Below are positions 3,905 to 25,446 of a stretch of 64,000 nucleotides of DNA, in pieces. The DNA comes from Pseudomonadota bacterium (GTDB lineage Bacteria; Pseudomonadota; Alphaproteobacteria; Micropepsales; Micropepsaceae): contig JACQDN010000079.1 in assembly GCA_016201105.1 (NCBI GenBank), positions 1 through 64,000 on the forward strand, given 5' to 3'. Made by a program: the position numbers and the translations under genes. Position 1 is the first letter of the stretch. Each line of letters begins with the position of its first letter. Below the pieces are notes generated by a model that was not told the DNA's origin, searched no databases, and was given only the letters and a program-made list of their open reading frames with translations.

Positions 3905-3942
3905 CGGCAGCGTCACGAACGCCGAGGGAGAGGCCCGCGTCC

Positions 3943-4657: not shown

Positions 4658-5299
4658 TTAGTACGCTTCCGCTCTTTCGCGGCTGAACAGTTTCTTGAAG
4701 AAACTCGACATGCCATGCCGTTTCTTCTTGCGGTCGATGTCGGCCTGGCTGCGCACCCAGGCGATCTGGACCACGCGGCGTTCGCCCACGAACGGCGTGT
4801 GGCCGTGCCAGGAATGGTCCGCGCGTTTGAAGGCGACGATGGCGCCGGTTTCCGGACTCGCCTCGGCGACATAGTCCTTGAAGTCGCGATCGTTGTTCAG
4901 CACGCGGAAACGCCCTTCGGGTGAATCCCAGGTGTCGTTCATATAAATCAGGCAGGTCGCGATCTTGCTTTCGGAGTCGCAGTGGATGCGCCCTTCATGC
5001 GCCGCCGAGACGCGGCGGATGGTGATGAGCTGCGGATAGGGGCGCAGATCGACGCCCAGCGTATCGGACACCGCCGCAGTGAAATCCAGCGACTGAATTT
5101 CGCCGATGAGATCGGCGAACTTGCCCTCGATGGTCATCTGCTCCAGCGGATGAAAGCCGGTCGCCTTGATGTCGGGGAAGCTGTCCTGCAGCGCCGCAAT
5201 TGAATCGGGATTGAGCGATCCCTTGCCCATGAAAAAGTCATAGGGCGAGTGATGCACTTGCGAGGCGCGGACGGCGTCGAGGTTCAAAATCGAAGTCAT
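4658..5299 (-). CDS. 2-oxoglutarate/Fe(II)-dependent oxygenase family protein
   Basis: Protein of 213 residues with a double-stranded beta-helix oxygenase signature. The iron facial triad is probably His106 and Asp108 (RIHCDSE) with a His in the SWHGH stretch (165 or 167). An Arg in GERRVVQ (174-175) would hold 2-oxoglutarate. The substrate is not predictable. It is monocistronic, transcribed toward the repeat-filled gap, and ends in a basic tail, FFKKLFSRERAEAY. It sits in one of the blocks that split the tsaE-kinase neighbourhood. Confidence 0.75.
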   Translation of the reverse strand: MTSILNLDAVRASQVHHSPYDFFMGKGSLNPDSIAALQDSFPDIKATGFHPLEQMTIEGKFADLIGEIQSLDFTAAVSDTLGVDLRPYPQLITIRRVSAAHEGRIHCDSESKIATCLIYMNDTWDSPEGRFRVLNNDRDFKDYVAEASPETGAIVAFKRADHSWHGHTPFVGERRVVQIAWVRSQADIDRKKKRHGMSSFFKKLFSRERAEAY

Positions 5300-5388
5300 G
5301 CTGCAGGTGCGATAAAATCACGGCACTTATACCGCTGCGCGTGCGCGCTCAGAAGGACGCTAACGCCGCAGGGTAAACTTTGCGGCTG

Positions 5389-7920
5389 TTACGCGGCTGT
5401 CATGGACTTGGATTCGCCCTTGGAATCACCAGCTCCGCGCGGCTCGCCGTCAGGCATGCGGCGCGGCAAATGGCAGCGCACCAGCGTGCCGCCGTCGGTT
5501 CCGCTTTCGATTTCCACCCAGCCGTCGTGCAGCTCCACGAAGCGGTTGACGAGCGCAAGACCCAATCCCGCGCCCGCGCGCTGGCCGGCGCGGCTCTTTG
5601 CGGAGAAGCGATCGAACACACTGGCTTTCACGTCCGGCGCGATGCCGGGCCCGGTGTCGGCGACCCAGATCTGCGCGTCGTCGCCCACGATTTCGCCGCC
5701 CAGCGTGATGGCGCCCCCGCGCGGGGTGTACTTGAACGCGTTGGACAGCAGATTGAACACCACTTGGCGGATGCGGCGCTGGTCCACCACGATGATGCCG
5801 ATATCCTCGTCGCAATCGACAACGAATTTGATGTCGAGACTTTCGGCATGCTGGCGCAAAGGTTCTGCCACGCGCAAGAGCAGGTCGTAGAGATCGACGC
5901 GGCCGAGTTCCAGGCGCATCGCGCCCGAATCGATCATGGCGAGATCGAGAATATCGCTCGTGACTTCCGCGAGCTTGTTCGAGGCCGCCAGAATGTCCTG
6001 CACATATTCGCCCTGTTTCGGACTGAGCGAACCGGCTGCGCCCGATGCCAGCAAATCGGCAAAGCCGTGCACCGCGTTCAGCGGATCGCGGAACAGGAAC
6101 GAGGCATGGTGCACGAAATCGGATTTGAGGCGATCGGCGGCTTCCAGCGCTTCGTTGCGCTCGCGCAGCGCGCTCTCGATGCGGTGGCGGTCGGTGACGT
6201 CGGCGAACGTCACCAGCGTTGCGCCGTCCGGCAGCGGCGCCGTGGAGAGCGCCAGAATGGTTTTGTCGGGCCGTTCGATTTCCGGCCAGTCGCGCCGCCG
6301 TTCCGCGCCCGAAGAAATGCTCGCCACCAATTTGCGCCACACCGCGTCGTCGCCAAAGCGGACGACACTGGCATCGGCGATCTTCTGCGCATGCGGTTCC
6401 CCGATCAGGACGCTATCGTCGAGCTGCCAGATGCGGGCGAAGGAGGCATTGTGCAGCTTCAGCCGCCCGTCGGGCCCGAACACCGCGACGCCTTCCTGCA
6501 GCGTGTCGAGTGTGGCCGACTGGGCCTTGATGAGCGTGTTGTAGGAGCTTTCCAGAGCCAGTTTTTCAGTGACGTCTTCGTAGAGGAAGGTCAGCCCGCC
6601 GAACGGATGGGGCTGCGGCACGACGCGCAAGGTTTTGCCGCCAGGCACATGCCAAAGCTCCTCCGGCAAGTATTCGCCCGGCTGATCGTAAAGTGCGAGA
6701 CGCTGGCGTTTCCAAAGCTGAAAGTCGCGCTGTTCTGGCAGCTTGCGCGCCTCGCGCAAGCGATCGAGCATTTCGCCGTCGCTCGGGTTGCGGTCCAGCC
6801 ATTTCTCCGGCAGGCCCCACAGATTGACGAAGGCGCGATTGTAGAAAGTGAGTTTCTGGTCGCGCCCGAATACGGCAACGGCGGTGGCGAGTTTGTCCAG
6901 CGTGTCGGAATGGGCGTCGAGATGCTGCTGCAGCTTCGCTTCCGCGTTGGAGACGTCGGTGACGTCGATGGCGGAGCCGACGATACGTCCGTCGTCCAAT
7001 GGCACGTGCGTGAAGGCAAGCGCGCGGCGCTGTCCGCCGACGACGGCAAAACGTTTGGCTTCGAGCGCATGACCTTCCGCCCGCGCGGCGCTGGCAAGAT
7101 CGCGTTCGGACTTGTCGAGCGGCACTTGGGCGGTGAGCACCGCGCCGGTATCGGCTATGCCCGTCGCCGAGGCGTAGGCGCTATTGGCCCAGAGCAACGA
7201 CAACGTCTTGTCGCGCAGCCACACCGGAATGGGCAGCGCGTCGAGCACCGATTGAAAATCTGGCGCCAGCGATTTGGCTTCCTCGATTTCTTCCAGCCAT
7301 ACGGCCGCCATGCCGCCCACGGCGCGTCCGCGCATCGCGATGCTGCGGGCGTTTTTGTCGAGGACGTCGAGCGTGAAAGGCGCGCCGCGATCGCCGAGCG
7401 CATCGAGGGCTTCGGAGATCGCCGTCGCGTCGGGGCCGGCAAGGCACGCATCGAGCAACACCTCGCCGCCGCCATAGGAAAGGGGCGCCTGTTCGCCGCG
7501 TCCCCACACCACGACCGACTCGCGCCCCGCGGAAATCAATGCGTCGCGCGCGCCGGACGAGGCGCGCGCTCGCGCGCTCAATGTCCGCAAGGACCGGCGC
7601 AAGCGGCCGGCGGCAAATTGCTCCGAGAGCGCCCACAACCCAGCCGCGATCGCGAGCGCAATCCCTCCCGCCGCCACGGCGCTGGTGATCAGCGTCACGT
7701 CGTCAATGGCTGCGCGAATTTCTGTGACAGGCGCTGCAAGAGCCTGACTCGACAGGAAAATGCCTGCGCACATGGCGCAGACCAGCAGCCCCCTCTTGGA
7801 GCGGAGCCTCCCGCCTACGCCAAGGCTTCGGCGGGCCAGGTACGAGTCGAACGCCTGCCGTAGCTTCAGCGTAGGCAGGTCCCCCTCCCGGCGCCTGTTA
7901 TGTCCCGACTGGGGACTCAT
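5389..7920 (-). CDS. Multi-PAS histidine-kinase-like protein with Phe at the phosphoacceptor site (DivL-like)
   Basis: Membrane protein of 843 residues: two hydrophobic segments near 43-63 and 75-98, several PAS-like regions between about 215 and 600, a HisKA-like dimerisation helix, and a HATPase domain. In the HisKA motif, FVHHASFLFRDPLNAV aligns with the usual FLANMSHELRTPLNAI, so the phosphorylated His is Phe608. The ATP-binding domain looks intact (N box LLSNAFKYT, G1 DTGPGI, F box FDRF, G2 GAGLGLALV). Caulobacter DivL carries Tyr at this site and acts through CckA, hence the DivL-like call. Residues 14-37 come from a repeat element (7811-7880), so translation may start further downstream. 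Confidence 0.8.
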   Translation of the reverse strand: MSPQSGHNRRREGDLPTLKLRQAFDSYLARRSLGVGGRLRSKRGLLVCAMCAGIFLSSQALAAPVTEIRAAIDDVTLITSAVAAGGIALAIAAGLWALSEQFAAGRLRRSLRTLSARARASSGARDALISAGRESVVVWGRGEQAPLSYGGGEVLLDACLAGPDATAISEALDALGDRGAPFTLDVLDKNARSIAMRGRAVGGMAAVWLEEIEEAKSLAPDFQSVLDALPIPVWLRDKTLSLLWANSAYASATGIADTGAVLTAQVPLDKSERDLASAARAEGHALEAKRFAVVGGQRRALAFTHVPLDDGRIVGSAIDVTDVSNAEAKLQQHLDAHSDTLDKLATAVAVFGRDQKLTFYNRAFVNLWGLPEKWLDRNPSDGEMLDRLREARKLPEQRDFQLWKRQRLALYDQPGEYLPEELWHVPGGKTLRVVPQPHPFGGLTFLYEDVTEKLALESSYNTLIKAQSATLDTLQEGVAVFGPDGRLKLHNASFARIWQLDDSVLIGEPHAQKIADASVVRFGDDAVWRKLVASISSGAERRRDWPEIERPDKTILALSTAPLPDGATLVTFADVTDRHRIESALRERNEALEAADRLKSDFVHHASFLFRDPLNAVHGFADLLASGAAGSLSPKQGEYVQDILAASNKLAEVTSDILDLAMIDSGAMRLELGRVDLYDLLLRVAEPLRQHAESLDIKFVVDCDEDIGIIVVDQRRIRQVVFNLLSNAFKYTPRGGAITLGGEIVGDDAQIWVADTGPGIAPDVKASVFDRFSAKSRAGQRAGAGLGLALVNRFVELHDGWVEIESGTDGGTLVRCHLPRRMPDGEPRGAGDSKGESKSMTAA
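7811..7880. repeat. Family G repeat inside the kinase 5' end
   Basis: GCCTACGCCAAGGC at the left end is matched by the inverted GCTTCAGCGTAGGC at the right. A related copy lies at 18153-18222. It is in frame with the kinase gene and encodes about 24 residues before the first membrane segment. Confidence 0.6.
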
Positions 7921-17791: not shown

Positions 17792-18019
17792 ATGACACTG
17801 CAATGGACAGATCCCACCTTCCTTCATGCCGCGGCGATGCTCGTACAATTCGTGCAGGTGGGGGTGGGATATCTGGGTGAGACATCAGGCTTGATCGGCG
17901 GTCTTGCGCCCAGGCGCATGGAATTCACCGCCCTTCAACCCGTGCTTGGCTTCGCGGCGCTTTTGATCAGCGCCGCAGTGCGATGGTGGCTGATGGACAC
18001 GCGAACGCGCGTGGTGTGA
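17792..18019 (+). CDS. Small hypothetical membrane protein
   Basis: A frame of 75 codons, 19 bp after the XRE gene, with an RBS-like AAAGGTG six bases before its ATG. It has a moderately hydrophobic N-terminal stretch and a clear C-terminal membrane segment (LQPVLGFAALLISAAVRWWLM). No family recognised. Spacing and RBS suggest it is the third gene of the DUF2975-XRE unit, but a chance frame is not excluded. Confidence 0.45.
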   Translation: MTLQWTDPTFLHAAAMLVQFVQVGVGYLGETSGLIGGLAPRRMEFTALQPVLGFAALLISAAVRWWLMDTRTRVV

Positions 18020-18030
18020 TGCATGTCGCC

Positions 18031-18238
18031 TAATTACCTCTCCCTTGTGGAGAGGTCGACGCGCGAAGCGTGTCGGGTGAGGGGTAAGAATAGAGCGCGG
18101 TGGTGAGGCTTCCCCTCACCCGAAATTTGCTTCGCAAATTTCGACCTCTCCACCCGCCTACGCTTCGCTTCGGCGTGGCAGGCACGAACTCAAGGCACGC
18201 CGTAGCTTTGGCGAAGGCGGCGAGGGAGAGGTGATTAG
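18031..18238. repeat. Long imperfect palindrome, family B, copy 2, with an inserted family G repeat
   Basis: Ends TAATTACCTCTCCCTTGTGG and GGGAGAGGTGATTA. The right arm carries GAAATTTGC-TTC-GCAAATTTC. The right stem is interrupted at 18153-18222 by a family G sequence (GCCTACGCTTCGC ... CGTAGCTTTGGCGAAGGC), so one repeat has inserted into another. Confidence 0.8.
18153..18222. repeat. Family G repeat nested in palindrome B copy 2
   Basis: GCCTACGCTTCGCTTCGGCG on the left and CGTAGCTTTGGCGAAGGC on the right, inverted, as in the copy within the kinase gene at 7811-7880. It interrupts the right outer stem of the family B element. Confidence 0.6.
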
Positions 18239-18306
18239 TTCACCGAGCGATCTCCTCACTCCTGAAATTCGGCGTCGCGTGTTCTTCCACGAGGCGCCCT
18301 GGCTCC

Positions 18307-18846
18307 TCAAGCAGCGCCTTCTTCGCTCGGATCGCGGCGCATCTTGCCGATGTCCCGGATCATCCGCTTCAGCGAGAGCCGGTCGAGGCTTGTGAGCGGC
18401 AGCGCGCAGAACATCCCGATGCGGTTCTGCAGTAGGCGGTAGGCGTCAAACAGGGCTCGCGAAATGATGGCTTGCGAGCCCCCGGCCGCGGCCGGATCGG
18501 GTACGCCCCAATGGGCGCTCATCGGCTGGCCTGGCCAGACCGGACAGACTTCGTTCGCGGCGTTGTCGCAAACGGTGAACACGAAATCGAGCTTCGGCGC
18601 GCCCGGCGCGGCGAACTCCTCCCAGCTCTTCGAGCACAATCCATCGGTCTTGAACCTGAAGCTCCTCAGCAGCGCAATGGTTTGCGGACTGACTTCGCCC
18701 TTCGGCCGCGAGCCGGCACTGTATGCCCTGAATCTCGGCGCGCCGACGCGGTTCAGAATCGCTTCGGCCATGATCGAGCGCACCGAATTGCCGGTACAGA
18801 GAAACAGCACGTTGTACGGATGGCCCGCACTTTCCTTGTCGCTCAT
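18307..18846 (-). CDS. Arsenate reductase ArsC, low-molecular-weight phosphatase fold (thioredoxin-coupled type)
   Basis: Protein of 179 residues. The P-loop C-T-G-N-S-V-R (Cys17 to Arg23) is the LMW protein tyrosine phosphatase signature. The second cysteine pair, Cys93 and Cys101 (TVCDNAANEVCPVWPG), matches the redox cysteines of thioredoxin-dependent ArsC, and HWGVPDPA is the conserved Asp loop. The longer upstream frame is an artefact; the ATG at 18846 overlaps the stop of the membrane-protein gene (ATGA). No arsB/acr3 or ArsR is adjacent, so arsenate may not be the physiological substrate. Likely last gene of an ECF41-driven operon. Confidence 0.87.
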   Translation of the reverse strand: MSDKESAGHPYNVLFLCTGNSVRSIMAEAILNRVGAPRFRAYSAGSRPKGEVSPQTIALLRSFRFKTDGLCSKSWEEFAAPGAPKLDFVFTVCDNAANEVCPVWPGQPMSAHWGVPDPAAAGGSQAIISRALFDAYRLLQNRIGMFCALPLTSLDRLSLKRMIRDIGKMRRDPSEEGAA

Positions 18847-19295
18847 TTTTCCCCGCCTGATTTTCGGGCACTCAATTTTCGGGCATGGGCCACGGCTTGC
18901 GCCGCGAAGCCCACCAAGGCGACGCCAAGCGGAACGTGGACCCACATGAGGTTGGCGCCGTTTGCGGACATTTTGCCGACGGCAGTCTGAAGCAAGACCA
19001 CTACCGCCAGCGACAACAGAGTCAAACCCAGTTTCCATCCTTGCTGGATACGGCGGAGCGTGATGACGCAGACGAGACCCGCTGTGAAAGTGAAGGCGAT
19101 CAGTAGTGCTGCATTCAGCGAATGTGCCGAGCGTGCCCAATCGACTCCTGACAACATCAGGCCGGCGAAGACCGCTTGGGCGAAAATAGCAACGACGAGC
19201 AAGACAGAGACGATGGTCCACCAGCGCCGCAAGGTGCGACTGGGATCATCCGCAACAGTTGGTCGGCCCAATTGGACAGCCGCGTCGGTATTCAT
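18843..19295 (-). CDS. Four-helix integral membrane protein (DUF6220-like)
   Basis: Protein of 150 residues with four hydrophobic helices: WTIVSVLLVVAIFAQAVF, LNAALLIAFTFTAGLVCVI, LGLTLLSLAVVVLLQTAVG and VHVPLGVALVGFAAQAVA. Conserved-looking His residues in helices 2 and 4 (SAHSLN, WVHVPLG) recall small haem-binding four-helix proteins. The DUF6220 assignment is from memory of the pattern. Translationally coupled to arsC downstream and 27 bp after the VOC gene. Confidence 0.75.
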   Translation of the reverse strand: MNTDAAVQLGRPTVADDPSRTLRRWWTIVSVLLVVAIFAQAVFAGLMLSGVDWARSAHSLNAALLIAFTFTAGLVCVITLRRIQQGWKLGLTLLSLAVVVLLQTAVGKMSANGANLMWVHVPLGVALVGFAAQAVAHARKLSARKSGGEK

Positions 19296-19322
19296 CTCTG
19301 TTTCCCTTCTCCGCGCGATTGC

Positions 19323-19721
19323 TCATCGTGTCGGGTTGAAAGCGGCGGGTTGAAAGAGTTCGACGACATTGCCGGAGGGATCCTGGAGCAGGACCTGCTT
19401 GCCGCCCGGTCCTGAGAGGATGTCGTTGCGAAACGGCGCACCCGCATTGCGCAGGCGCGCGACTTCGGCATCGATGTCGTCGACGATGAGGTGAATGCGG
19501 TTCCAGCCGCCGGGGCCCGGCTTGGCGCCATCCGGCATGGGCCGCCCTGCGGAGCTGCTTGGTCCACTGAGCAGCAATCGCAGTTTGCCGCGGGCAACGT
19601 CGGCGAAAGCGGGAAACTTGTTCAGGACTTCGAAGTCGAGGAACGTCGTGTAGAAGGCGACCGCCTTCTCAACGTCGTCCACCATGTAGCGGACGCTTAC
19701 CATGTCACTGGGATCGGTCAT
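19323..19721 (-). CDS. VOC superfamily (glyoxalase/bleomycin-resistance-like) protein
   Basis: Dioxygenase-fold protein of 132 residues from the ATG at 19721 (RBS AGGAG). It has two beta-alpha-beta-beta-beta modules: VSVRYMVDDVEKAVAFYTT and WNRIHLIVDDIDAEVARL, ending LQDPSGNVVELFQP. An upstream in-frame ATG at 19877, also with an AGGAG, would add 52 low-complexity residues. The ECF41-type promoter at 19941-19967 would give a leader that includes it, so an N-terminal extension or leader peptide is possible. First gene of the VOC-membrane protein-arsC unit. Confidence 0.85.
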   Translation of the reverse strand: MTDPSDMVSVRYMVDDVEKAVAFYTTFLDFEVLNKFPAFADVARGKLRLLLSGPSSSAGRPMPDGAKPGPGGWNRIHLIVDDIDAEVARLRNAGAPFRNDILSGPGGKQVLLQDPSGNVVELFQPAAFNPTR

Positions 19722-19887
19722 GTGGCTTCTCCTGTGCTGCCGCGGGGTGGCGCTCGGCTCGGCCGCCGGCAACCCTTGGGCGTTGTTTGGGACGTTCCCG
19801 GTTGCAGGCAGCACGGCCTGAATGGCTGCTACGACGCTGGGTGACAGGGCCGCCGGATGCTTCCTGCGGGATTCCATTCTCTTCTCC

Positions 19888-19914
19888 TGTCACATTGTCC
19901 TGACGTGGCCCGTC
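19888..19914 (+). promoter_or_regulatory. ECF41-type promoter for the sigma factor gene
   Basis: TGTCACA at 19888-19894, 16 bp spacer, CGTC at 19911-19914. This matches the published ECF41 consensus as I remember it (TGTCACA and CGTC). It points at the sigma gene 54 bp downstream, indicating autoregulation. Confidence 0.75.
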
Positions 19915-19940
19915 ATACTCATGACGCCCGTTATACTCAT

Positions 19941-19967
19941 GACGAATGGCGCCACCGGAAAGTGACA
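19941..19967 (-). promoter_or_regulatory. Divergent ECF41-type promoter for the VOC operon
   Basis: On the minus strand TGTCACT (plus 19961-19967) is followed after 16 bp by CGTC (plus 19941-19944), the same spacing as the plus-strand site. Between the two promoters lies a tandem repeat of TATACTCATGACG with the inverted repeat CGTCAT-ACTC-ATGACG. Confidence 0.65.
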
Positions 19968-20852
19968 ATGACCGAGAAAGAAATTCTGGCGGAGCGGTTC
20001 GAAGCCAGCCGGGCCCATCTCAGATCCGTCGCTTACCGGATGCTGGGCTCCGGGGCCGAGGCCGACGATGCGGTGCAGGAGACCTTTCTCCGGTTCATGC
20101 GTGCCGGGTCGAGTGGCATCGACAATTTTTCCGGCTGGCTCACGACCATCGTGGCCCGCGTCTGCCTCGATATGCTTCGCGAACGAAAGTCGCGGCACGA
20201 AGTTCCGGTCGATGCCGGCGTCGAAACCCTCCCGGCGGCGAACAATCCGGAGCGCGAGACGCTGATCGCGGACTCCGTCGGCGTTGCGATGCTGGTGGTG
20301 CTCGAGACCCTGACGCCGGCGGAGCGGGTCGCGTTCGTGTTGCACGATATGTTCAATTTCTCGTTCGATGAGATTGCGCCGGTCGTCGGCCGCTCGCCGG
20401 CGGCGGTGCGACAGCTCGCGAGCCGAGGGCGACGGCGAGTGCAGGGCGCACCCGCTCAGCCGGAGGCTGACCGGACGCGGCAACGCGAGGTCATCGACGC
20501 GTTTCTTGCCGCATCGCGCAGCGGTGACTTCGCAGCCCTTCTCGCCATCCTCGATCCCGGTGTCGTGCTGCGGGCGGACGCAGCGGCGGTGCAGGCAAGT
20601 TTGGCGCTTGCAAGCCAGGATGTACCGATCCTCGCCCCGGAGATCCGCGGTCGCGACGCCGTTGCGAACATCTTCCGGGGCCGCGCGAAGGCGGCGCAGC
20701 TCGCTTTGCTTGACGGCGACTATGGCTTTGTGTTTGCGCCCGGAGGAAGCCCGCGCGTGGCGGCCGACTTCGTCCTGGAGAACGGCCGGATCGTCGAGAT
20801 CAGCCTCATCGCGGACCCAGAGCGTATCGCTGCACGCGACATAGAGTTCTGA
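19968..20852 (+). CDS. ECF RNA polymerase sigma factor, ECF41 (SigJ-like) with SnoaL-like C-terminal domain
   Basis: Sigma factor of 294 residues. Region 2 spans about residues 10-75 (VAYRMLGSGAEADDAVQETFLRF) and region 4 about 105-158 (TPAERVAFVLHDMFNFSFDEIAPVVGRS split between helices). A C-terminal domain of about 130 residues (165-290) has the SnoaL-like fold and replaces an anti-sigma factor in ECF41 proteins. It ends VENGRIVEI-like, with ADPERI at the place of the family NPDKL motif. ECF41 genes normally sit beside their single target. Here the target would be the divergent VOC-membrane protein-arsC operon, and both promoters match. Confidence 0.88.
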   Translation: MTEKEILAERFEASRAHLRSVAYRMLGSGAEADDAVQETFLRFMRAGSSGIDNFSGWLTTIVARVCLDMLRERKSRHEVPVDAGVETLPAANNPERETLIADSVGVAMLVVLETLTPAERVAFVLHDMFNFSFDEIAPVVGRSPAAVRQLASRGRRRVQGAPAQPEADRTRQREVIDAFLAASRSGDFAALLAILDPGVVLRADAAAVQASLALASQDVPILAPEIRGRDAVANIFRGRAKAAQLALLDGDYGFVFAPGGSPRVAADFVLENGRIVEISLIADPERIAARDIEF

Positions 20853-20883
20853 CGCAACTTCACCCAGCCGGAGCCCTCACAAC

Positions 20884-21279
20884 CTAGTCGTAGTGCTCGG
20901 CGTCCTCAGGCACGCTCACCCAGGCGTGCTTGCGCAATTCATAGACGGAGACTTTCGGCGCCGGAAACGACGGATCGGCAAACGCCCCGATCGGCACGGC
21001 GATCGCGTCGGGCATGTCTTCATTGACGTAATAGACGGTCGCGCCGCAGGTCGGACAGAAATGAAAGCGGGCGCGGCCGCCTTCATCGCCGGTGAGCACG
21101 TACTCGCTGGAGTGTCCCTCGATGTTCGCCGATGCACGCGGCCAGCGCGCTTGCGCGCTGTACGTGCTGCCGGTGCGCCTCTGGCAGGCGAGGCAATGGC
21201 ATATGGAAATGCGTACGGGCTCGCCTTCGCAGGTGATGGAAAGCTTGCCGCAGGAGCAGGTGGCGGTGCGTGTGGTCAT
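20884..21279 (-). CDS. GFA family (glutathione-dependent formaldehyde-activating-like) zinc protein
   Basis: Protein of 131 residues. Zinc-binding cysteines are in CSCGKL near the N-terminus, ICHCLACQ in the first third, and FCPTCGA in the middle, the spacing of the Gfa/CENP-V fold. The proposed enzyme joins glutathione and formaldehyde, but most family members have no proven activity. Start chosen at MTTRTATCSC; the longer frame runs into a family A repeat. Convergent with the sigma factor gene. Confidence 0.88.
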   Translation of the reverse strand: MTTRTATCSCGKLSITCEGEPVRISICHCLACQRRTGSTYSAQARWPRASANIEGHSSEYVLTGDEGGRARFHFCPTCGATVYYVNEDMPDAIAVPIGAFADPSFPAPKVSVYELRKHAWVSVPEDAEHYD

Positions 21280-21296
21280 GAACAAATCTAACACGG

Positions 21297-21431
21297 CTCG
21301 ACCCTCCCTTGGGAGGGTCGAAGCGCGAAGCGCTTCGGGGAGGATGCCGACGGAGAATCTGCCTTGCACATCCTCCCCGAAAAATTCTGCGCTTCGCTCC
21401 GAATTTTTCGACCCTCCCAAGGGAGGGTCGA
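21297..21431. repeat. Long imperfect palindrome, family A, copy 3
   Basis: Ends CTCGACCCTCCCTTGGGAGG and CCCTCCCAAGGGAGGGTCGA. Left hairpin GAAGCGC-GAA-GCGCTTC. Located between gfa and ahcY, ending 3 bp before the ahcY stop codon. Confidence 0.85.
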
Positions 21432-21433
21432 TC

Positions 21434-22837
21434 TCAATACCGATAATGCTCCGGCTTGAACGGGCCCTGCTGCGGCACGCCGATATATTCGGACTGCTTG
21501 TCCGTCATCTTCGTCAGCTTCACGCCGATCTTTTCCAGATGCAGCCGTGCCACTTTCTCGTCGAGCTCCTTGGGCAGGGTGTAGACCTTCTTCTCGTACT
21601 GGCCCTGTTTCGTATAGAGCTCGATCTGCGCCAGCGTCTGGTTGGTGAAGCTTGCGCTCATCACGAAGCTGGGATGCCCCATGGCATTGCCGAGATTCAC
21701 CAAGCGCCCCTCGGAGAGCAGGATGATGCGCTTGTTGTCGGGGAATTCGATCTCGTCCACCTGCGGCTTCACATTGTGCCATTTGTAATTGCGCAGCGCC
21801 GCGACCTGGATCTCGGAATCGAAGTGACCGATGTTGCAGACGATGGCGCGGTCTTTCATCGCCCGCATGTGTTCGATGGTGATGACGTCGAGATTGCCGG
21901 TGGCCGTCACGAAGATGTCGGCACGGGGCGCGGCGTCTTCCATCGTAATCACTTCATAGCCTTCCATCGCGGCCTGCAGCGCGCAGATAGGATCGACTTC
22001 GCTCACCATCACGCGGCAACCGGCCTGACGCAGCGATGCTGCCGAGCCTTTGCCCACGTCGCCGAAGCCGGCGACCATCGCGACTTTGCCCGCCATCATC
22101 ACATCGGTGCCGCGGCGGATGCCGTCGACCAGGGATTCGCGGCAGCCATAGAGATTGTCGAATTTCGATTTCGTCACGCTGTCGTTCACGTTGATGGCGG
22201 GGAACAGCAGCTTGCCTTCGCGCGCCATGATGTAGAGGCGGTGAACGCCGGTGGTGGTTTCTTCCGTCACGCCTTTGATGCTTTCGGCGAGCTTCGTATA
22301 CCAGCCGTGCTTGTGCTTCAGGCGGCGCTTGATGGCGGCGAAGAGGACTTCCTCTTCCTCGTTGCCGGGCTTTTCGAGAAAAGCGACGTCGCCCTTTTCG
22401 GCCCGCAGTCCCAGATGCACGAGCAGCGTCGCGTCGCCGCCGTCGTCGAGGATCATGTTCGGCACGCCGCCGTCGGCCCATTCGAAGATGCGGTGGGTAT
22501 ATTCCCAATAGTCTTCCAGGCTTTCGCCCTTCACAGCGAACACCGGCGTGCCCCCGGCCGCGATCGCGGCGGCCGCGTGATCCTGCGTCGAATAGATGTT
22601 GCAGGAAGCCCAGCGCACATCGGCGCCCAGCGCCTTCAGTGTCTCGATCAGCACCGCCGTCTGAATGGTCATATGCAGCGAGCCGGCGACGCGTGCGCCT
22701 TTGAGCGGCTGCGTGGGGCCGTATTCGGCGCGGGTGGCCATCAGGCCCGGCATTTCGACTTCGGCGATGTCGATTTCCTTGCGCCCCCAATCGGCGAGGT
22801 TGATGTCCTTGACGATGTAGTCGTGGGGGGCGGCCAT
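21434..22837 (-). CDS. ahcY: S-adenosylhomocysteine hydrolase
   Basis: SAH hydrolase (adenosylhomocysteinase) of 467 residues, full length for the bacterial type with the 40-residue insertion. NAD-binding motif [12 protein letters not shown]; substrate-domain motifs [16 protein letters not shown] and [13 protein letters not shown]-terminal KPEHYRY, where the Lys-x4-Tyr contacts the NAD of the neighbouring subunit. It removes the methylation by-product SAH, giving adenosine and homocysteine. In many relatives it sits between the hpr gene and the PAS kinase; here it stands alone between inserted blocks. A palindrome upstream (22900-22923) may control it. Confidence 0.98.
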
Positions 22838-23988: not shown

Positions 23989-24636
23989 ATGAACTCAAAA
24001 GAATTATTCGCTCTTGCCGAAGCCGATGACGCTGCGGCTCTCGATGCCGCGCTCCACGGCGCGCCCGAAACGTTCCGTATACGGAATGAATCCGGAGAGT
24101 CGCTTTATCTCTTCTGCGTTTTCCGCGGGCGGATGAAATGCGCCGAACTGCTGAAGACGCGCGGCGATTTTGGACTGCACGAAGCGGCTTTGGCAGGCGA
24201 TACGGCGCGCGTCGAAGCGTTGCTGAAATCCGCGCCATCGGTGATCGACATGCTGTCGCCCGATGGTTGGACGGCGCTGCACATGGCGGCCTTTCCGGGA
24301 AACGATGCCACGGTCGTCAAGCTGCTGGATCTGGGCGCGGATGCGCGGGTGTTCAGCCGCGCCTTCGAGCAGAACATGGCGATGCATGCCGCCGCCGCCG
24401 GCCGCCGCATCGGCAAACAGGCCTACGCCAAACTGATCGCGGCCTCCGGTGTCGATGCCTTGCAGAAACAGGGCTACACCGCGCTGATGATCGCGGCGTC
24501 GAACGGGTTCGCCGACGGGATCGACGCGCTCTTGGCAGCCGGCGCGAACCGGACCCTGAAGACGCCGGATGGAAAGACCGCCGCGGACATCGCCGTGGAT
24601 CGCGGCCACATGGACCTCGTGCAACGATTGCGCTAA
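23989..24636 (+). CDS. Ankyrin repeat protein
   Basis: Protein of 215 residues with about five ankyrin repeats from residue 5 on. Recognisable units include GLHEAALAGDTARVEALLKS, DGWTALHMAAFPGNDATVV and GYTALMIAASNGFADGIDAL. No signal peptide. The ATG at 23989 has RBS GGAGA eight bases upstream; an upstream in-frame start would read through a short GC-rich hairpin at about 23937-23965. A protein-interaction scaffold with no known partner. Confidence 0.85.
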   Translation: MNSKELFALAEADDAAALDAALHGAPETFRIRNESGESLYLFCVFRGRMKCAELLKTRGDFGLHEAALAGDTARVEALLKSAPSVIDMLSPDGWTALHMAAFPGNDATVVKLLDLGADARVFSRAFEQNMAMHAAAAGRRIGKQAYAKLIAASGVDALQKQGYTALMIAASNGFADGIDALLAAGANRTLKTPDGKTAADIAVDRGHMDLVQRLR

Positions 24637-24675
24637 GCCCTCACACCGTTCGCAGCCATTGGCCGTTCGCTTTCG

Positions 24676-25446
24676 ATGTCCGATTTCCTTTGCGTCTCCA
24701 TCCGCATTCCAAAGAGCGGAAGTTCGAGCCTTGCGCGCGTGCTGGAACAGGCGTTCGCGGATCGCCGCATTTTCTTTTTGCCGCACACCCTTGATCGCGA
24801 CGGCGAACTCTCCGCGCTGCAGCGCGCGCGCTTCCTGCGTTCCCGCGTCCAGAACCTGTTCCGCCACTATCGCGCTATTACGATTGCGACCGCATTCGAC
24901 CGGATCGAGAAAGAGGCGCGCGGCGGCGATCTGATCAGCGGCGGCCACGTCGACTTTCTGACCTTGCGCGCGAATATCGCGCGCCCGCTCAAGATCATCA
25001 CCCTGTTTCGCGAACCGGTGGCGCGCGCATTGTCGGAGTACAATTATTCGCGCGAGAGCTATCAGAAGAAGCACTTCCTGGGCCGCATCGACGCGGCGAT
25101 CCTGCCCAAGGCCGCCGGGCGGTATTCGTTCGAAGGGTATCTCGATTATCTGCTCGAGCACCGCCACATCTATGGCGATGTCGCCAGCCGCTATGTCGGA
25201 TGGAACGGCACGGAGCCGATTGGCGATTTCTTCGCCAACCACGTCTTTCATGCGGGCATCCTGGAGGATGCAAATTCGTTCGTACACGGACTATCTGAGA
25301 AGATGGGACGCGCGGTATCGTTCCCGCACGAAAACCGGACCGAGCAAGTCAGCGCGGAATCCGTCAGCAGAGCGGAGCGGTCCCGAATCGAGAAATTGTT
25401 CGCCCGCGACTTTGAGATCTACGCCTGGCAAAAGGCCCGGGTATAG
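24676..25446 (+). CDS. Sulfotransferase family protein
   Basis: Protein of 256 residues. The N-terminal RIPKSGSSSLARVL fits the 5'-phosphosulfate loop that binds PAPS. The Arg and Ser in FREPVARALSEYNY form the 3'-phosphate motif. The pattern is closest to the heparan-sulfate 2-O-sulfotransferase-like branch (Sulfotransfer_2) also found in bacterial polysaccharide or nodulation-factor modification. No signal peptide or glycosyltransferase neighbour, so the acceptor is unknown. It follows the ankyrin gene by 39 bp and could share its transcript. Confidence 0.85.
   Translation: MSDFLCVSIRIPKSGSSSLARVLEQAFADRRIFFLPHTLDRDGELSALQRARFLRSRVQNLFRHYRAITIATAFDRIEKEARGGDLISGGHVDFLTLRANIARPLKIITLFREPVARALSEYNYSRESYQKKHFLGRIDAAILPKAAGRYSFEGYLDYLLEHRHIYGDVASRYVGWNGTEPIGDFFANHVFHAGILEDANSFVHGLSEKMGRAVSFPHENRTEQVSAESVSRAERSRIEKLFARDFEIYAWQKARV

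Follow-up and report, generated by a model that had tools for sequence, protein, structure and literature searches.

A mirror-image promoter pair probably shared by an ECF41-like sigma factor gene and a divergent VOC-membrane protein-ArsC-like operon

Main finding

We propose that positions 19888-19967 of the window (the whole 64,000-nucleotide stretch of DNA that was analysed) form a bidirectional promoter of the neighbouring ECF-type sigma factor, common to the sigma gene and to a target operon. Judged from the sequence, we put the probability of this reading at about two in three. The mirror layout was found in many relatives; it is the operon attached to it in the window that is unusual.

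Two facing promoters upstream of the sigma gene

The original prediction held that two ECF41-type motifs of equal spacing lie on opposite strands here, and both were found:

19888..19914, plus strand: ECF41-type promoter TGTCACA-N16-CGTC, directed at the sigma gene (motif search; like units in relatives)
19941..19967, minus strand: ECF41-type promoter TGTCACT-N16-CGTC, directed at the VOC operon (motif search; like units in relatives)
19911-19928 and 19929-19946: -10 core in two imperfect tandem copies, 18-bp period, 15 of 18 bases equal

The sigma-ward promoter is on the left and points right, and the VOC-ward promoter is on the right and points left. The -35 boxes are outermost and the -10 boxes innermost, so that the two promoters overlap and point towards each other; the description of the pair as back-to-back was wrong. 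The -35 box of the VOC promoter starts at 19967, one base ahead of the sigma start codon at 19968.

The motif TGTCACW-N16-CGTC matched twice in the window against 0.05 expected, and none of 100 shuffles reached two matches. The original prediction also suggested a genome-wide search for such sites. With the looser TGTCAC-N17-CGTC, seven sites were found in the 3.85-Mb genome against one for the backwards control pattern, but no regulon emerged: the five sites beyond the locus lie inside or overlap ORFs of at least 60 codons, and tblastn (1e-4) found no homologue of the sigma factor, VOC, membrane protein, ArsC or carboxymuconolactone decarboxylase (CMD) within 1.5 kb of them. The evidence is therefore the adjacent pair, and a wider regulon is not claimed. 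No housekeeping promoter was found in 17900-21450; with 0.6 in shuffles, this absence carries no information.

In the window 26 bp separate the -10 boxes, versus 8 bp in most interlocked relatives. The gap is widened by the imperfect 18-bp tandem repeat of the core, in which 15 of the first 16 bases are identical between the copies; the automated repeat search did not report a tandem repeat at 19911-19946. The earlier reader had overlooked this repeat, as well as a CMD-like leader ORF between the promoter and the VOC gene.

An ECF41-like sigma factor outside canonical ECF41

The gene on the right encodes the putative regulator:

19968..20852, plus strand: ECF-type sigma factor with a C-terminal SnoaL/NTF2-like domain (sequence and predicted model)

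The protein matched M. tuberculosis SigJ (PDB 5xe7) over its full length (E 1.1e-35). Its predicted model (mean pLDDT 87.9, pTM 0.59) returned SigJ and SigG1 as the top Foldseek matches, with NTF2-like chains among the remaining ones. The C-terminal SnoaL/NTF2-like domain that had been predicted is supported by the model and by the best PDB match, SigJ, with Pfam SnoaL_2 staying sub-threshold (20.5 of 27 bits). That this domain defines ECF41 is too strong a claim, as ECF56, ECF205, ECF294 and ECF295 carry it too (PMC8999054, PMC7730460). ECF56 was set aside, since its solved member SigG1 matches far more weakly than SigJ (1.8e-13 versus 1.1e-35).

Within the SnoaL-like domain, ECF41 proteins carry the motif DGGGK. 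DGGG was absent from all 87 rows of the window clade versus present at 29 of 30 canonical ECF41 loci (the thirtieth, L117, was covered to 68 residues). Two further ECF41 signatures are YVGPWLPEP in the sigma2-sigma4 linker and NPDKL near the C-terminus (PMC7730460). WLPEP occurred in 0/87 clade rows versus 27/30 canonical loci, the relaxed W.PEP in 0/87 versus 28/30, and exact NPDKL in 0/87 versus 20/30; the window sigma has ADPERI at the place corresponding to NPDKL. Under the NCBIfam SigJ and SigX4 models it scored below the cut-offs (222.4 of 271 and 195.3 of 323.25 bits). The interlocked unit was found at none of the 30 canonical loci, which were the best-scoring from a 385-genome search (L136 came without upstream sequence). 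The assignment to ECF41 is thus supported for the promoter type and not for strict membership, and because of the missing motifs and the lack of the unit at the 30 canonical loci the protein is filed as ECF41-like. By sequence it appears to belong to an ECF41-like sister group, which might coincide with a numbered group such as ECF205, ECF294 or ECF295.

At E 1e-50, homologues of the sigma factor were found in 4 of 100 relatives, its own genome included. The same genome (G000) encodes a second, canonical ECF41 on contig C46 at 24462-25337 (L133), with YVGPWLPEP, DGGGR and NPDKL and 345 bits, above the family cut-off. Seven neighbouring proteins scanned against Pfam gave no match to an anti-sigma family. 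A gene of the GFA family (glutathione-dependent formaldehyde-activating; 20887-21279, minus strand) is convergent with the sigma gene.

The divergent operon and a likely CMD relic

On the left of the promoter pair lie:

19722..19877, minus strand: leader ORF, 52 codons, in frame with VOC, first ~32 residues like a CMD N-terminus (profile match)
19323..19721, minus strand: VOC protein (glyoxalase/bleomycin-resistance superfamily), 132 aa, no cysteine (sequence)
18843..19295, minus strand: small membrane protein, 150 aa (no Pfam family at 1e-3)
18307..18846, minus strand: LMWPc/ArsC-like protein with a CTGNSVRS loop and a CDNAANEVC cysteine pair (profile and alignment, cysteines by eye)

The predicted gene spacings were exact, with 27 bp between the VOC and membrane-protein genes (19296-19322) and a 4-bp overlap of the membrane-protein gene with arsC (18843-18846). 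By eye, AGGAG precedes the VOC start at 19721, where translation probably begins. The third protein of the operon matched LMWPc and solved arsenate reductases and has both the CX5R loop (CTGNSVRS) and a redox cysteine pair (CDNAANEVC), at a score well under the curated NCBIfam cut-off (55.7 of 174.3 bits). ArsI lyase binds arsenicals through a cysteine pair; an ArsI-type C-As lyase was rejected for the VOC protein, as it contains no cysteine. Cysteine was likewise absent from the VOC proteins of G022, G379, G100 and L015.

The leader ORF starts with MESRRKHPAALSPSVVAAIQAVLPAT, similar to CMD N-termini. Among 1091 frames of the window it gave the best match to CMD, yet fell short of the HMMER inclusion threshold (E 0.014; next frame 0.93). 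As an isolated peptide it scored 14.6 bits, compared with at most 4.8 in 1000 shuffles (924 gave a score), and tblastn against G038 gave 1e-5 in one 3.9-kb locus. The leader is thus likely to be the remnant of a CMD start, matching over ~32 residues. The ancestral output gene was probably CMD, replaced here by the VOC, membrane-protein and LMWPc/ArsC-like genes.

A sister locus and the VOC-membrane module elsewhere

One genome of the same genus, G022, retains the VOC-membrane-ArsC cluster together with the promoter pair, its promoters reading CGTCACA instead of TGTCACA. In the sigma tree it is the sister of the window (support 100/90; the bootstrap had not settled). By tblastn the two share ~70% identity in the sigma factor, ~48% in the membrane protein and ~40% in the ArsC-like protein; over aligned residues the ArsC-like proteins are 53% identical (110 residues) and the VOC proteins 84% (120 residues). 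His 58 and His 120 of the membrane protein also occur in the G022 homologue. The retention of cluster and promoter pair supports the predicted shared control of the sigma factor with VOC, membrane protein and ArsC. At the position of the VOC start ATG, G022 has ACG with GGGAG still upstream (L092 2484-2508), either an alternative start or a sequencing error.

Homologues of the membrane protein were found in 2 of 100 relatives (the window's own genome and G022) and, with a two-row profile, in 3 of 385 genomes of the class (its own, G100 and G379); none was found in the plasmid collection. In G100 and G379 the VOC and membrane-protein genes come after a fusion protein:

L105 2198-3025, minus strand: ArsR-type HTH fused to LMWPc, ahead of the VOC-membrane pair
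L106 3828-4649, plus strand: ArsR-type HTH fused to LMWPc, ahead of the VOC-membrane pair

No homologue of the window sigma was found near the G100 and G379 modules, within the 10 and 8 kb examined. Each of these two genomes has a canonical-model ECF41 elsewhere. The VOC-membrane pair, divergent from a sigma gene here and preceded by an ArsR-LMWPc fusion in G100 and G379, is thus associated with two kinds of regulator. L106 carries another VOC gene, at 5044-5400.

The original prediction also took ArsC to be a novel ECF41 target. Wecke et al. 2012 (PMC3426412) name carboxymuconolactone decarboxylases, oxidoreductases or epimerases as ECF41 targets, and neither 'arsenate' nor 'glyoxalase' appears in their main text; the claim of novelty fits this, and the operon is better described as a swapped-in target of a sister clade. 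In a literature search that sought neither Wu et al. 2019 nor the 2021 ECF reclassification by name, no title or abstract among the matches listed was recognised as dealing with a face-to-face ECF41 promoter pair or an ArsC target.

Recurrence of the mirror-image unit

We collected 84 loci, made up of 80 relatives (the best 80 of 549 from genome contigs, a sample that leans to close relatives), three same-genus loci and the window. Each was scanned from 160 bp upstream to 20 bp inside the sigma gene, with 100 dinucleotide shuffles as control. The sigma-ward motif NGTCAC-N17-YGTC was present in 55 loci (shuffle mean 0.23) and the target-ward motif in 45 (mean 0.51). In 35 loci the two were interlocked, an arrangement that never arose in the shuffles (mean 0); the other 49 had no mirror unit directly upstream of the sigma gene. 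The 35 loci, several of them from metagenome assemblies, carry the phylum labels Pseudomonadota (12), Actinomycetota (11), Chloroflexota (4), Thermomicrobiota (2), Myxococcota (1) and Bacillota (1), with four unlabelled including the window. Five loci outside the 35 (L032, L046, L050, L065, L081) have a unit farther upstream, over 100 bp away from the sigma gene, by a pattern allowing gaps of 6-12 bp.

The gap between the -10 boxes was 8 bp in 29 of the 35 units and 9 bp in three, with 11, 26 (the window) and 44 bp once each. Five of the six -35 letters and the -10 letters were fixed by the search pattern, so their conservation is by construction and is not evidence. In the 29 units with an 8-bp gap, positions outside the pattern were conserved in mirror pairs as well: A followed the left -35 box in 93% (86% at its mirror position) and the left -10 box in 97% (97% at its mirror).

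Across the genus, 6 of 69 genomes contained the mirror unit, and none of the 69 matched the backwards control; with its 26-bp gap, the window's own copy escaped this search. All six adjoin a sigma factor of this clade. The divergent gene is CMD in G441, G057, G442, G038 and G446, and in G022 it is VOC, followed by the membrane-protein and ArsC-like genes. Among 385 genomes sampled across the class the strict unit pattern was not found. A genuine back-to-back pair would be that of the canonical ECF41 locus L125, whose sigma-ward motif lies at -64 and whose minus-strand motif lies at -96.

Association of the target-ward motif with the divergent gene

Divergent genes were classified by tblastn with queries drawn from five of these loci and the window, giving 28 CMD and 5 VOC among the 84 loci; other divergent enzymes escape such queries. 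A crude coding score gave neighbour classes that differed from those of tblastn at 9 of 33 loci, and the tblastn classes were used. CMD is the commonest recognised divergent partner. The target-ward motif was present in 30 of the 33 loci with a divergent CMD or VOC gene versus 15 of the 51 without (Fisher p 2e-8). The sigma-ward motif was more evenly distributed (27/33 versus 28/51, p 0.018), and interlocked motifs were found in 26/33 versus 9/51. In a phylogenetically controlled test on seven independent pairs on supported branches, the median p was 0.0625 for the target-ward motif, 0.125 for the interlock and 0.5 for the sigma-ward motif. Relatedness weakens the association of motif and divergent gene, and this controlled test is itself weak.

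We looked individually at the nine interlocked loci with no CMD or VOC match. By eye, L072 and L083 show VOC-like ORFs, and L038, L039 and L085 have different divergent ORFs. L012 keeps a truncated CMD start (55-codon ORF at 3927, minus strand) behind an intact mirror promoter, likely a second case of CMD loss. L021 lies at the end of a contig. In L044 and L045 neither a divergent gene nor a CMD start was recognised; given these three loci, the mirror half need not always accompany a divergent gene. In other organisms (L013, L015, L033, L072 and L083), VOC-like ORFs were seen by eye divergent to this sigma clade. VOC enzymes may be a recurring partner of the clade.

Proposed mechanism and alternative explanations

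The element matches the logic of bidirectional promoters, and by this analogy polymerase carrying the sigma factor may choose between its own gene and the target. Holoenzyme with this sigma would bind the element in either of two orientations, one leading to the sigma gene and the other to the VOC, membrane-protein and ArsC-like operon. Given the size of a polymerase footprint, the two footprints would overlap, so that only one polymerase would be bound at a time. Every activation event would then be split between feedback (more sigma) and output, which should couple both products and hold runaway autoactivation in check. The SnoaL-like domain would be the likely signal input. In the window, the CMD output would have been replaced by VOC-membrane-ArsC, with about the first 32 CMD codons remaining as the leader, and the tandem repeat would separate both start regions, leaving each half-promoter intact. 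Wecke et al. mapped starts with 22/23-bp leaders, and their Table 5 gives 31 and 32 nt for the same genes (PMC3426412); we take these figures to mean a distance of ~8-10 nt from the -10 box to the start.

The canonical ECF41 encoded on contig C46 of the same genome (24462-25337, 345 bits) may recognise the same promoters, since canonical ECF41 promoters have the same consensus (PMC3426412). One or both promoters might then be driven by that protein and not by the neighbouring sigma, making a two-sigma circuit. We regard this as improbable: in all six genus matches the mirror unit adjoins a sigma of the window type, and it was found at none of the 30 canonical loci (one without upstream sequence). 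It is also unlikely, to a slightly lesser degree, that a single half-promoter works and that the mirror half is a remnant or has another role, such as ribosome-binding-site context or a repressor site. In its favour are the position of GTGAC between the ribosome-binding site and the start codon of the sigma gene, and the mirror half kept in L044 and L045, where no divergent gene was recognised. Against it, the target-ward half tends to be found where there is a divergent CMD or VOC gene, and both halves have -35 and -10 boxes at the correct spacing, with the 8-bp gap in 29 of 35 units.

As a third alternative to the shared bidirectional promoter, which we prefer, the VOC-membrane-ArsC genes could form an arsenic detoxification operon with a sigma factor that responds to arsenic. 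The likeness of the third protein to LMWPc and solved arsenate reductases speaks for this, as does the finding that in two genomes a fusion of an ArsR-type HTH with LMWPc precedes the VOC-membrane pair. We nevertheless find it doubtful. The ArsC score is far under the curated cut-off (55.7 of 174.3 bits), the cysteine-free VOC is unlike ArsI lyase, and Pfam gave no match to an arsenite-pump family among eight proteins of the locus scanned. Inspected by eye for the metal-binding cysteine motif of ArsR proteins, the ArsR half of the fusion shows no obvious counterpart. Arsenic is at most a candidate substrate or signal.

Extended to relatives, the bidirectional-promoter reading would mean that throughout an ECF sigma clade spanning several phyla, one mirror-image promoter serves both the sigma gene, for self-control, and its target. 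Activation would be a choice of feedback or output, a self-limiting, low-noise switch in ~62 bp with a swappable output slot (CMD, several VOC enzymes, the VOC-membrane-ArsC module). For this wider proposal we see the case for and against as evenly balanced. The exchange of the target suggests that a promoter unit of this kind can persist after the gene it formerly controlled is gone.

Comparison with known systems

Bidirectional promoters, reportedly a subject of Warman et al. in 2021, have been described in E. coli and Salmonella, where work on how they are controlled has only recently begun. If our reading is true, the window clade would offer a conserved case with an alternative sigma, whose own gene and neighbouring target compete for the same DNA. 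It would be a very simple system for testing how polymerase competition shapes feedback and noise, and the window would supply a natural variant whose core is longer.

In the window unit the promoter elements of the two strands are mirror-symmetric, and mirror-symmetric DNA serving two polymerase orientations also characterises the E. coli and Salmonella promoters (PMC12825309, PMC10268837), defined by divergent starts 7-25 bp apart (PMC10268837). There, the symmetry is that of a shared -10 element, whereas in the window -35 and -10 boxes each occur twice, mirrored, and unlike those cases the unit involves an alternative sigma beside its own gene. Neither 'ECF' nor 'alternative sigma' occurs in the main text of PMC12825309. 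In that study of E. coli, competition between orientations was measured once one direction was strongly activated, and at none of the five promoters tested was basal activity high enough for competition.

With ECF41 as described by Wecke et al. 2012 (PMC3426412) the locus shares the promoter TGTCACA-n16-CGTC, the SnoaL-like C-terminal extension, promoters before both sigma and target genes and, in the window's relatives, CMD-type partners. That paper reports divergent loci with both motifs, and its available text does not describe their geometry. The window clade differs in its missing WLPEP, DGGG and exact NPDKL (87 rows), in its interlocked promoters and in the VOC-membrane-ArsC target.

The ArsC-like protein resembles thioredoxin-type ArsC of the pI258 family in its LMWPc family, CX5R loop and second cysteine pair; unlike these enzymes, it has a different cysteine spacing in the alignment and a score far under the curated cut-off. 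Among solved ECF proteins, SigJ (5xe7) is the best relative of the window sigma and its top Foldseek match, with 33% identity in that alignment and a low whole-chain TM-score (0.32-0.34), probably from differing domain placement. ECF56 SigG1 (PDB 7qh5) is likewise an ECF sigma with a C-terminal SnoaL_2 domain and has a cognate sigma antagonist, RsfG (PMC7730460). Around the locus, at 18030-18240 and 21298-21430 of the window, inverted-repeat blocks resembling dispersed repeats were seen by eye, with similar translated strings in L001 and L004.
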